Notes under the pieces: generated by a model | The model's database searches: none | The model's input: only the letters and a program-made list of their open reading frames with translations | Told to the model about the DNA's origin: nothing | Shown here: positions 12,036 to 24,000 of the stretch, piece after piece | Position numbering within the stretch: the first letter of the stretch is position 1 | Layout of the letters: every line of letters starts with the position of its first letter | Translations under genes and position numbers: made by a program | Origin: Onthophagus taurus | Lineage: Eukaryota > Arthropoda > Insecta > Coleoptera > Scarabaeidae | DNA: 64,000 bases | Assembly (NCBI RefSeq): GCF_036711975.1 | Contig: NW_027248941.1 | Span: forward strand, 2,108,001 to 2,172,000 | Direction: 5' to 3'

Positions 12036-15000
12036 TTATTCATCGCAAGGTCGGTAAAATTTAAAGTTGTACTCTGTGAATTCAAGTCCGAGCTTCGAAG
12101 GAGAAATCTTACAAATATTCTAAAACACAAAAAAAAAGGAATTAATTAATTAATAATTAATAAATTGATTTAATTTACTTGATTCTGTCGTTGTGTATGC
12201 CTATAAGTCATAATTTTAGCTTGCGAATCCGTCATATCGACCTCAAAAACGAAAACATGATCATTAATCATTTGAACAGGAACGTTCTCATCCACCGTAT
12301 ATCCCCCGTTTTGCGTCTTATTTTCATTTGGACTCATCATTGGGGATGAACACGGCCTTAACCGCGTCGAGTGACACTGCTCGACCACCACGTTCCTTTG
12401 ATGCGCCCTAAACACGACTCTCACATACGAATCGGGCATATACTTCGAAATTGGAACGTCGTACGTAAAATTGGACATCCCCAATCCATCCTCTTCCAAT
12501 AAATAATCACGCGTGATGTCGGTACTGAAGTTTTTGCCTTGAATTGTAATTCGAAGGGGGTTCGTTTCATCTGGGGTCCCATCGTAGGTGTTTTCTTTAT
12601 CGTTGATGTCATCAACGTCTCTTTTTTGACGCGTTTTGTGAGGAAGTTTCGTTATTTTGTTTGTTTTTTCTAATTGGGAGGTTAATGTTTTATTTTTGGT
12701 CGGTTTAGACGATTTCTCTTTGAATGTGAGGTGTGATCCAATTGATTTTTCAATGATTGTGGTACAACAGAATGACTAAAAAGAAATAATTATTTAATTC
12801 AATTAATTAATCAATAATATTAAATTTACTTACAGTGCAAGAATTAATTGGGTCCAAATCATCGAAGTTTGCGCAATCGATGGGTTTACCTATTATTTTT
12901 GAAAATTCTTTATCAATTGGGGTTATTTCTATTGCTTTTTCTACTCCTAATAAAACGAAAATCATACAAAATCATAAAAAATTAAATAATTTTGATTTTA
13001 CCGTTATCTTTATATGGAATTTCTGTTGGAATGTTGAAAGGTAAATCCCATCTTTGATGATTTTTGGTGGTTTGGATCGGTTTATTTGTACTATAATAAT
13101 GTTTCAAATGCAAATTTGGTTGGGGAAGTTGCTTGTGTCCCGTTTCGATCAAATACAACGTTGTTATAGCTGCCAAACTGCGAAAAAAGGAGTTTTTAGG
13201 TTATAAATTGGAACAAATTTAATTTTCATGGTTACTATATGATAGGAAATAAAAAATGCTTTGAAATGAGCCCAAACTCGATGGGATTATCTCAAAGTTG
13301 ATAAACCGGAAGTTAGTAACCGGAAGTAACGATATCTCGCTTATTTTTGGTGATACAACATCGAGTTTTGGATGGTTTTAAATGGATTTTAATGAAGATG
13401 AAGAATTTGTTAAACAAATTTAATTTTCCCGAAAGTTGATAACCGGAAGTAACCCTTTTTGGTTGATTTTTAAATAGAAAAATGTTGCGTTTGGCCTCAT
13501 AATGCTGTATTTGCGATGAAAACAACGAATTTATTAAAAAAATTTAATAATGTTAATTTTCCCGGAAGTTGATTACCGGAAGTAACCCTTTACCGGTTAT
13601 TTGTAAGTATAAAATCAATCTTAATAGCCTCAAATTACAGGATATTCAACGAAGGTAACGATACATTTAAAAATTTTTAACGAAACTTATATTTCCGGAA
13701 GTTGACAACCGGAAGTAACCGATAAATGGGTTACTTTTAAACTTTAAAACGTCGTTAATGACGTTATATAACAAGATTTTTAATGAAGATTACGATTTTC
13801 TTAGAAATTTGTACAAAAAAAATATTTTCCGGAAGTTAATAACCGGAAGTAACCCTTTTTTCGGTTGTTTTAATAAATAAAAAGGCTATTAATGGTGTGG
13901 TATTACAAGATATTTGATACAGATAACGAATTTGTCAAAAAATTTTAATAATACCAATTTTTCCGGAAGTTGATAACCGGAAGTAACCCATTTTAGCTCG
14001 ATTTTTATCATTGAAACGTCGTTAATGACATTATATAATAACATTTTTAATGAAGATTACGATTTTCTTAGAAATTTGTACAAAAAATTTAATTTCCGGA
14101 AGTTGATAACCGGAAGTAACTCTTTTATCGGATGTTTTAATTAATAAAAAGGCTATTAATGGTGTCGTATTAAAGGATATTTGATAAAGATAACGAATTT
14201 GACAAAAAAATTTAATAATACCAATTTTTCCGGAAGTTGATAACCGGAAGTAACCCATTTTAGCTTGATTTTAATCATTGGAACGTCGTTAATGACATCA
14301 TATGACAAGATTTTTAATGATTATTACGACTTTTTTAGAAATTTATAGAAAAACTTTATTTTCCGGAAGTTAATAACCGGAAGTAACTCTTTTATCGGAT
14401 GTTTTAATTAATAAAAAGGCTATTAATGGTGTCGTATTAAAGGATATTTGATAAAGATAACGAATTTGACAAAAAAATTTAATAATACCAATTTTTCCGG
14501 AAGTTGATAACCGGAAGTAACCCATTTTAGCTTGATTTTAATCATTGGAAAGTCGTTAATGACATCATATGACAAAATTTTTAATAAAGATTACGATTTT
14601 TTTAGAAATTTATAGAAAAAATTTAATTTCCGGAAGTTGATAACCGGAAGTAACTCTTTTATCGGATGTTTTAATTAATAAAAAGGCTATTAATGGTGTC
14701 GTATTAAAGGATATTTGATAAAGATAACGAATTTGACAAAAAAATTTAATAATACCAATTTTTCCGGAAGTTGATAACCGGAAGTAACCCATTTTAGCTC
14801 GATTTTAATCATTGAAACGTCGTTAATGGTATTATATGACAAGATTCTTAATAAAGATAACGAATTTGTCATAAAAAAACAATAATATTAATTTTCCGCG
14901 AAGTTGATAACCGGAAGTAACCCATTTTAGCTCGATTTTAATCATTGGAACGTCGTTAATGACATCATATGACAAGATTTTTAATAAAGATTACGATTTT

Positions 15001-21000: not shown

Positions 21001-24000
21001 ATTTAATTTTTATGGTTGCTGTATGACAGGAAATTAAAAATGCTTTGAAATGAGCCCAAACTCGATGGGGTTACCACAAAGTTAATAAACCGGAAGTTGG
21101 TAACCGGAAGTAACGATATCTCGGTTATTTTTAGCGATACAACATCGAGTTTGGGATGGTTTTAAAGGGATTTTAATGGCGATGGCGAATTTCTTGAAAT
21201 TGTTTAATAAAATTTATTTTTTTCAAAATTAATGACCGGAAGTAACCCTTTATCGCGTAATTTTTAAATAGAAAAATGTTGGGTTTGATGTTATAAAGCA
21301 GTATTTGTAAAAAAAATAACGAATTTGTTAAAAAAAATGGTGCTTGTGTACCGTTTCGATCAAATACAACGTCGTTATAGCTGCCAAATTGCGAAAAAAA
21401 GATTTTTTAGGTTATAAATGGGATTAAATTTAATTTTTATGGTTGCTGTATGATAGGAAATTAAAATTGCTTTGAAATGAGCCCAAACTCGATGGGGTTA
21501 CCTCAAAGTTGATATACCGGAAGTTGGTAACCGGAAGTAACGATATCTCGGTTATTTTTAGTGATACAACATCGAGTTTGGGATGGTTTTAAAGGGATTT
21601 TAATGACGATGACGAATTTCTTGAAATTGTTTAATAAATTTAATTTTTTTCAAAATTAATGACCGGAAGTAACCCTTTATCGCATAATTTTCAAGTAGCA
21701 AAATGTTGTGCTTTGTGTGAAAATGCAGTATTTGTAATGAAAATAACAAATATCTTAAAAAATTTTAATTTTTCCGGAAGTTCATAACCGGAAGTAACCC
21801 ATTTTCGCTTAATTTTAAACATTGAAACGTCGTTAATGGTGTTATATGACAGCATTTTTAATAAAGATTACGATTTTCTTAGAATTTTATAGAAAAAATT
21901 ATTTTTCCGGAAGTTGATAACCGGAAGTAACCCTAATATCGGTTGTTTTAATATACAAAAAAGGTCATATTAAATGATTTTTGAAGGGGATCACGAATTT
22001 TTCAAAAAATTTTAATAATATTAATTTTCCCGGAATTTGATAACCGGAAGTAACCCATATATAGGTTATTTTTAAACATTGAAACGTCGTTGATGGTGTC
22101 ATACCACAATATTTTCAACGATAATTACGATTTTCTTAAAAATTTGTAAAAAAAATTATTTTTCCGGAAGTTGGTAACCGGAAGTAACCCCAATTTGGGT
22201 GATTTAAAAAGATAGAAACGTGGGGTTTCGCATAATCTTAAACGATTTTTAAAGACGATTCAAAATAGAGCAAAAATTTTTAATAAAGTGGATTTTCCTG
22301 GAAGTTTATAACCGGAAGTAACTTAAATTTGGGTGATTCTAAACGATTTTTATAAACACCATGTATATAAAAGTATAAAAATTAAAACGTCAAAAAAAGT
22401 GAGGTTAAAAAATTAAAAATATAATTTTTTAATTAATTATTAATATTTTTTTGAGTAATTTTGATTTGGTTTAGAATTTAAAATAAAATCTATATCGAAA
22501 GGGAAAAATTCCGTGCTAAATCTCGACAAAGTTTTGTCAATAAGGGATTTACGTATTACTTTGTTGATGTAACCATGGCGATTTAATGCGTGATTAATAC
22601 TTTAAAGATTTTCCTCCTAAATTAATTCATTTAAGATTGATTTTAATTAAAATTTAAAAAAAAATTAATTAATTAACTCAACAATATCAAAAAAAATGTT
22701 AGGTTAAAATCAAAAATCATACCAGTTTGCGATTTAGACCTATTTTGCCTCTCTTCCTCCATATTCCAAGAATATTCCATAATTTTGTGAAATCAAATTA
22801 AAAAAAATTTGTTTAAGGAGAATTAATTTCCCCCATTTTGTTATTTTTTTAAACAACCAAAAAAAATTTTAAATCCATTTTTTTTATGAACTTAATTGTT
22901 ATAAAACGATTTATTTAAATTTTACATGGTTAAAAAAGAAATTAACTTTAACAACTTTTTTTTTTGTTTAAATTAGAATAGATTTAGCACCTAATCGAAT
23001 AAACCGCGCACAAATAACTGATTTTCTGTAACAAATTCATCCCCACTTTACAAGTTTCGTTACCCGGAGCAACGGCGGAAACGAAAAAATTGTCTCTATA
23101 TTGACCCCTTTACCATAACGATGTTATTATTTCTTCAAACTTACAAGAACTTACAAAAAAAGATTTTTAAAAAATCACAAAATAATTTTTTTTTATATTT
23201 TAAGTTATTTATGATATAAACAATCTTTATGTACAGCTGTATATGATTAAATAAAGCGGATATACAGTTTAATAAGGTGATAAAAGAACAAAAAAACACC
23301 CCTGCGTTTATGGTAATTTTTGTTCAAATTCTAACCCCAAAATCAACGGAGTGTGTAATTTTTTTGACGATCTCAACCGTTTAGGTAGCTAAAAGGGGGA
23401 GCAGGTGGTTCTATAAAGTAAAAAAAAGTATTTTTATACCTATAAGTGTCACCTGGGAGTCTCCAAAAATAGATAGAAAGCGTTTAGACACTTTTTGATA
23501 ATTTTGGCAATTCATAGAAACCTCTGAGCAATTAAAGAAACGTTTAAAAAGTGCCTATAGACTTTCTGACATCTATAATCATCATCTGGGACTCTCTAAA
23601 AGTACCCAGAAAGCGTTTAGACAGTTTTTGACAATTTTGGAAATTCATATAAACGTCTTAGAAAACTAAGTAAATGTTTAGAAAGCTTCTGGGGACTTTT
23701 CGACATCTATGAATATCCTCCAGATCTCATCTAAAACACATAGAAAGCATTTAGACACTTTGCGATAACTTTGAAAAGATATAAAAACATCTAGGTAACT
23801 AAGGAAATGATTATAAAGTGTCTAAACCCTTTCTGACATCTATATATATCATCTAAAAATCTCCAAAAGTGTCCAAAAAGTGTTTAGACACTTCTTACAA
23901 TCACATATTTTGATAATCATTGCCTTACAAATGTTTAGGTAATGCAAGAAATCATTGAAAATCGTTTGGTGATATTTTGACATCTTTAAAAACCTTCAGG

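Follow-up and report, generated by a model that had tools for sequence, protein, structure and literature searches.

A nearly invariant ETS-type word in the diverged satellite arrays of the MYRF gene of Onthophagus taurus

At the MYRF gene of the beetle Onthophagus taurus, three arrays of tandem repeats carry dozens of copies of a short word that resembles the binding site of ETS-domain factors, and the question that the locus raises is whether this word is conserved while the repeats around it diverge and, if so, what holds it. We analyzed C16:2108001-2172000, a window of 64,000 nucleotides within the 290.8-Mb genome. The exact word CCGGAAGT occurs 75 times in the window, always on the + strand between positions 13306 and 22319 and nowhere else in it, against a mean of 1.14 and a maximum of 5 in 100 shuffled sequences; when up to one mismatch was allowed, 83 copies were found on the + strand between 13000 and 22700. 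The copies define 46 unit places of about 134 base pairs (bp) each, grouped in arrays of 17, 18 and 11 units. Each unit has two positions for the word, box 1 and box 2, and the exact copies divide into 31 first and 44 second boxes, with 30 exact pairs at a distance of 14 bp. A sequence-only reading had counted about 90 cores and 46 units with a pair exactly 14 bp apart: the dense array and the 46 places are real, but both counts of exact words were too high. Unit-to-unit spacing is 123-141 bp, save for three composites (293, 293 and 295 bp) and the two gaps between introns. Because this spacing is regular, no unit appears to have been skipped, and units without a box were therefore not lost when the units were chosen.

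Conservation of the two boxes

Box 2 is nearly invariant among units that have otherwise diverged. Mean identity was 0.99 for box 2, 0.89 for box 1, 0.90 for the 6-bp spacer and 0.72 for the remaining unit, and the model rates obtained with IQ-TREE were 0.24, 0.50, 0.63 and 1.14, respectively. For parsimony the tree was built only from columns outside the 26-bp block around the pair (CCGGAAGTTGATAACCGGAAGTAACC; for example 13963..13988, + strand), which we read as a 14-bp local duplication and which gives period-14 rows in the repeat analysis. Box 2 was scored in a 10-column form, that is the box plus one flanking base on each side, ACCGGAAGTA (first of the 46 second boxes: 13319..13328, + strand). 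With 43 units, after three edge or truncated units had been dropped, box 2 required 1 step in its 10 columns and the other 10-column windows at least 29 (mean 43.7); on terminal branches there was 1 change in box 2 and at least 13 in the remaining windows (mean 20.4). With all 46 units box 2 took 3 steps and the other windows at least 41. Of 10,000 draws of composition-matched columns, none was as low as box 2. When introns 1, 2 and 3 were analyzed separately (17, 16 and 10 units), box 2 took 0, 1 and 0 steps and lay each time below all 98 windows.

Pairwise comparisons gave the same picture. Among 18 close pairs, in which the rest of the unit diverged by less than 0.2, box 2 differed at 1/144 positions and the rest at 183/1902, and in the closest pairs the counts were 0/80 and 51/1063. 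In 15 wider pairs box 2 differed at 1/120 positions, box 1 at 20/120 and the rest at 386/1570. The invariant window runs from -1 to +8 and equals ACCGGAAGTA, every position being conserved in at least 44/46 units; at its edges conservation is 40/46 at -2, 42/46 at +9, 44/46 at +10 and 34/46 at +11. Only two units do not carry ACCGGAAGTA exactly, the truncated edge unit at 16535 and the unit at 17769. Ungapped counts agree with this invariance. In all, box 2 is very likely under constraint.

Box 1 is intermediate. In the close pairs it differed at 17/144 positions, much like the rest. Parsimony with 43 units gave 29 steps in its 8 columns, compared with 45 for composition-matched columns and 1 for the box-2 core, and values as low as that of box 1 were reached by 24 of 100 ordinary 8-column windows and by 20 of 10,000 composition-matched draws. 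With 46 units box 1 took 26 steps, below all windows and draws, and by intron it took 5, 16 and 6 steps, while 10-column windows of the rest averaged 19.2, 23.4 and 14.3. A weak constraint on box 1 is thus likely. The ETS-type site therefore evolves more slowly than its surroundings, strongly so at box 2 and moderately at box 1. An evenly conserved box pair is ruled out (exact in 31/46 against 44/46 units; 29 steps against 1), and the statement that box 1 drifts like the rest is too strong, since it holds in the close pairs and not overall. The sequence-only reading had the pair conserved while the spacers drift: the 26-bp block is indeed conserved, but the spacer is conserved to the same degree as box 1, and box 2 stands far above both.

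Box 1 has the same core as box 2 and so serves as an internal control; with 29 steps against 1, the invariance of box 2 cannot be put down to composition, CpG content or regional mutation rate. The composition-matched draws likewise rule out base composition or CpG as its cause, as do the G/C columns elsewhere in the unit, which change more than the A/T columns (6.6 against 4.0 steps per site). The intermediate state of box 1 leaves our odds as they are, because the box-2 result does not depend on the neutrality of box 1.

Structure and origin of the arrays

Array 1 (13131..15545, + strand) has 17 box-pair units, of which the first lies within a leader unit and the others are mostly 133-134 bp long; an internal dimer of about 267 bp has been amplified several times. 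Array 2 (16533..19000, + strand) has 18 such units: one truncated, two composites of a leader and a B unit, and then units of types B, C, D and F. Array 3 (20522..22345, + strand) has 11, with three leader + B composites (427 bp) followed by types D, E and F. The leader, B, D and F types occur in all three introns, C in introns 1 and 2 and E in introns 1 and 3, in one order and one orientation and expanded differently in each intron. For 11 of the 44 units compared, two edge units having been omitted, the best match lies in another intron. The order of the best cross-intron matches was correlated from intron 2 to 3 (rho 0.90), 2 to 1 (0.92), 3 to 2 (0.83) and 3 to 1 (0.85), each value being reached in at most 1 of 2000 permutations. 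We read this as one ordered cassette that was probably copied without a change of orientation and then grew in a different way in each intron; the alternative is the independent arrival of an already ordered array. The tests from intron 1 to 2 (rho 0.37, 144/2000) and from 1 to 3 (0.46, 81/2000) were weak, which counts against a common order; the probable reason is that a single dimer takes up a large part of intron 1. Two similar direct repeats, 20405-20470 and 22343-22410, seen by eye (TTTTTATAAACACC[C/A]TGTATATAAAAGTAT...), stand on either side of array 3 and are possibly the trace of its insertion.

MYRF lies on the - strand and was recognized by the Pfam domains MRF_C2, MYRF_ICA, Peptidase_S74 and NDT80. 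Its C-terminal exon open reading frame (ORF) with MRF_C2 is at 12170..12775 (- strand). Between arrays 1 and 2 lies the exon ORF 15588..16244 (- strand) with Peptidase_S74, MYRF_ICA and, by eye, the transmembrane end; between arrays 2 and 3 lies 19233..20270 (- strand) with the start of the NDT80-type DNA-binding domain. The intron hosting array 1 thus runs from the transmembrane/ICA exon to the C-terminal exon or exons, and that hosting array 2 splits the DNA-binding domain, the array ending about 50 bp from an exon placed by eye. Array 3 is upstream of the most N-terminal MYRF exon recognized (about 20208-20382, by eye), and no first coding exon of MYRF came to light in a motif scan. The proposed location in three MYRF introns therefore holds for arrays 1 and 2, which lie between Pfam-supported exons, and is inferred for array 3.

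The leader unit (427 bp) contains a 43-bp core common to a genome-wide superfamily with at least 240 matches, those of the MYRF arrays included. The leader + B composite at 20906..21340 (+ strand) holds this arm core (ATGCTTTGAAATGAGCCCAAACTCGATGG..., 21031..21073, + strand), the leader part most often matched elsewhere, and so ties the array to the superfamily. A 22-mer of the arm has 1095+1118 = 2,213 copies with at most one mismatch, and its reversed control has 0. CCGGAAGT lay within one mismatch at 16 of 17 arm-chosen loci, hand-picked among 100 listed places on C1 and C2. At set offsets (chiefly -43/-44 or +73) an exact box stood beside 67 of 177 arm matches in 26 arm-chosen loci, and shuffled words gave 0; allowing one mismatch, 73 boxes stood beside arms, whereas shuffled words averaged 0.5 and one look-alike, a shifted word, reached 36. 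Of the 9 loci found by the leader search, 7 have no box beside an arm.

The dispersed module reads box, 44 bp, arm, 73 bp, box (117 bp), with one box per module. MYRF leader units have the same arm core next to the box pair and, by eye, an inverse arm on the opposite side of the pair. From these contexts, read by eye, the MYRF unit would be a dispersed module plus a 14-bp duplication of the box. The flanks, read without statistics, suggest that the second box is ancestral and that the first arose by the duplication, in a branch with a few further copies outside MYRF. Locus L015 has three boxes spaced 14 bp. The 26-mer of the direct pair is nearly private to MYRF: 39 of its 46 places with at most three mismatches are in the MYRF arrays, and the reversed control has 0. 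The satellite origin of the arrays is near certain. As to whether they are a common dispersed satellite unconnected with MYRF, the superfamily is genome-wide, but few of the direct 14-bp pairs lie outside MYRF.

Inverted repeats of about 102 bp flank the modules at two of the six dispersed C1 loci (L085, 960-1061/2496-2597; L087, 974-1076/2184-2286; 96% and 85% identical), and these repeats may be the ends of a carrier element. The word AACCGGAAGT occurs 7,434 times in the genome and its reversed word 291 times. A foldback element of about 1.9 kb on C1 (L089-L095), with inverted repeats of about 860 bp, accounts for part of the excess on C1; its ends read TACAGGGTGT..., and ACTTCCGGTTATACCGGAAGT is exact in 11 of 14 arms of the seven copies read. 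Its two short frames hold no recognized protein domain (Pfam, nothing above cut-off), and DUF4817, suspected in the foldback elements, was not supported by Pfam. A hammerhead ribozyme, likewise suspected in dispersed C1 elements, was not supported either, with 0 Rfam matches in 6 sources. Among 20 further C1 places, hand-chosen and mostly outside 1.6-kb pairs, five were close to the foldback element, one had the superfamily arm, four resembled the foldback element weakly and ten resembled nothing known here. A common word in repeats is by itself no evidence of ETS use.

A second box-rich satellite of the same superfamily lies at L048+L049 (C3:26747800-26760200), with 121/173-bp units and 55 inverted pairs ACTTCCGGTTAAACCGGAAGT (at most seven mismatches); its right box is less variable than its left (0.03 against 0.086 variant cells), and L064 (C16:1317350-1318550) is of the same type. 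In the single-box superfamily array L011 (C16:1588400-1597200) the box varies in 1/120 cells against a rate of 0.051, which is not strong since this was one of several boxes tested. The window itself holds four other satellite arrays at 5538-7882, 30520-32224, 37978-42001 and 54284-57271, with units of 148, 154, 163 and 173/342 bp; the 163-bp array lies between SPT5 exon ORFs. A search for the telomere motif gave three overlapping internal TTAGG matches and was uninformative.

What may hold box 2

ACCGGAAGTA, present in 44/46 units, fits exactly the consensus for class I ETS factors, which PMC4447949 states as ACCGGAAGT(G/A), so that the ETS match proposed earlier is borne out for box 2. According to the same paper, three consensus positions have relaxed selectivity and CpG methylation abolishes binding of Etv1; PMC3315506 cites ACCGGAAGTA for Pet1. 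Twelve stretches of the genome, at about ten places, match the ETS domain above cut-off. A sequence-specific host protein, most likely an ETS-domain factor, would bind box 2 and so hold the word. Loss of the site in a unit would then carry a cost; bound units may, for example, keep the intronic repeat open for transcription, or the units may jointly form a regulatory element of MYRF. That a bound protein causes the constraint on box 2 is likely; that this protein would be an ETS factor in particular is about even, and that a benefit would come through MYRF is possible. For the explanation as a whole, namely a diverged branch of a dispersed satellite or mobile-element superfamily whose box 2 is kept by a putative bound host factor, we put the probability at roughly one half. 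A bolder form, in which a mobile satellite was co-opted in MYRF as a 46-site ETS-bound platform, with the site selected separately in nearly every unit and the redundant copy decaying, is tentative; such a platform might act in anti-silencing, as a boundary or as a dosage-sensitive enhancer.

Several observations weigh against the explanation by a bound host factor. Conservation extends beyond the minimal ETS site (+10 is C in 44/46 units), and the positions described as relaxed for ETS in PMC4447949 are also nearly fixed in box 2; a factor other than ETS is thus possible. The tree of recombining repeats is only approximate, and box 1 is not a purely neutral control, given its low model rate relative to the rest and the few matched draws as low. 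In population-genetic terms it is difficult to see how selection could act on every one of 46 redundant sites. Elsewhere in the genome the box is not exceptional. Across 99 dispersed modules conservation peaks at the arm, and the box comes at ranks 109 and 74 among 144 windows. Parsimony there gave 1.4 against 2.05 steps per site for the 34/103 arms with an alignable flank (box exact in 26), and 6.6 against 5.0 for 68/103 arms (box exact in 29). In the C3 array (54 units, six doubtful anchors having been dropped) the box was no slower in 27 close pairs (9/216 against 51/1501), and six further arrays pooled gave 4/232 against 294/7071 (p=0.064). Strong constraint on the box is thus shown only for MYRF, the younger arrays having little power. 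In 21 wider pairs of the C3 array the box was slightly slower (9/168 against 121/1157, p=0.037), and the six further arrays had 7 variant cells of 512 where 18.8 were expected. Eight other arrays showed no conserved block, 198-1000 of 1000 column shuffles reaching their maximum against 0 of 1000 for MYRF; this control is weak, as all eight are less diverged (mean identity 0.84-0.97 against 0.75 in MYRF). The box as a general transposase or mobile-element site is not supported, since it is average in the dispersed modules.

The constraint could also arise with no benefit to the animal, if box 2 were a motif of recognition or breakage and favored rearrangement of the arrays, so that only units carrying it multiply. 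Such a role in amplification is proposed for CENP-B-box-like motifs of nematode satellites in PMC3694981; here different unit blocks were repeatedly expanded locally in each intron, the same word occurs in other multiplied repeats of the genome, and two junctions of array 2 lie at or in box 2 (16550s and 18998; by eye, with no statistic). The other array edges that were read, again by eye, do not lie at box 2, and the box was not found conserved across the satellites of the genome as CENP-B-box-like motifs would be. This explanation moreover predicts that the box is freely lost after amplification, yet terminal branches show 1 change against about 20 and the closest pairs 0/80 against 51/1063. 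Because these branches are so quiet, amplification of box-bearing units alone is insufficient, and we consider this account rather unlikely. A neutral satellite of the ordinary kind, in which the box is merely the part that has not yet drifted, would suit the dispersed members and the younger arrays, in which the box is retained or lost about as other sequence is; it leaves 1 step against at least 29 unexplained, with ungapped counts saying the same, and, barring a gross error in the alignment, box 2 contradicts it, which makes it very hard to credit.

Tandem repeats undergo gene conversion, and the unit types shared among introns would fit very short-patch conversion or homogenization centered on box 2, without selection. 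Ordinary conversion tracts are, however, far longer than the conserved window, which has sharp edges (at -2 and +11), and box 1, which shares the core and lies 14 bp off, varies much more among units. A GC-biased form would slow the G/C columns elsewhere, and those are faster than the A/T columns, so that conversion appears highly improbable. The word might instead act in RNA: sense intron RNA would carry GGUUACUUCCGGU about once per unit, and an RNA-binding or splicing factor would keep the long repetitive introns harmless. All 75 boxes do have a single orientation relative to MYRF, in arrays within or next to a transcribed gene, but this orientation already follows from the tandem arrangement and the shared ancestry of the arrays. 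Rfam recognized no known RNA family in the window at gathering scores, the invariant word matches exactly a site that ETS proteins bind in DNA, and we regard an RNA-level element as improbable.

Comparable systems and meaning

The MYRF arrays resemble systems described in four papers. Like the CENP-B-box-like satellites of Meloidogyne (PMC3694981), they have a short conserved motif in diverging units that recurs among satellites of one genome; unlike there, the motif is ETS-like, a single gene houses the arrays in its introns, and the other copy of the motif in each unit is kept far less strictly. TCAST1 of Tribolium castaneum (PMC4537270) also forms satellite arrays dispersed near genes, and its copy-number-dependent effect on nearby genes is reported to be heterochromatin-mediated silencing after heat stress; its abstract mentions no constrained binding word like that of the MYRF arrays. 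The superfamily recalls the non-autonomous Helentrons of Crassostrea gigas (PMC7492417), whose satellite-like central repeats form short arrays that travel within mobile elements as modules and have links to satellite DNA, although the dispersed modules here stand in direct and inverted, foldback-like order. GGAA microsatellites bound by EWS/FLI (PMC3899989) are likewise tandem DNA with many ETS-type sites. Those runs serve an oncogenic fusion, and the NR0B1 example described there has no classical ACCGGAAGT site, whereas nearly every 134-bp MYRF unit keeps a ACCGGAAGT-type site. A literature search on satellites or mobile elements with ETS, GABP or HSF-1 sites found no account of a MYRF-intron array, judged by the search results.

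Satellite DNA is usually regarded as freely drifting. Because each unit has two copies of the core word, a single genome suffices to measure constraint on one 10-bp site. If the box is indeed held by a host factor, the arrays would be a clean case of a mobile satellite turned into a regulatory element with many sites within a developmental gene, and they would offer a direct test of how selection acts on redundant repeats.

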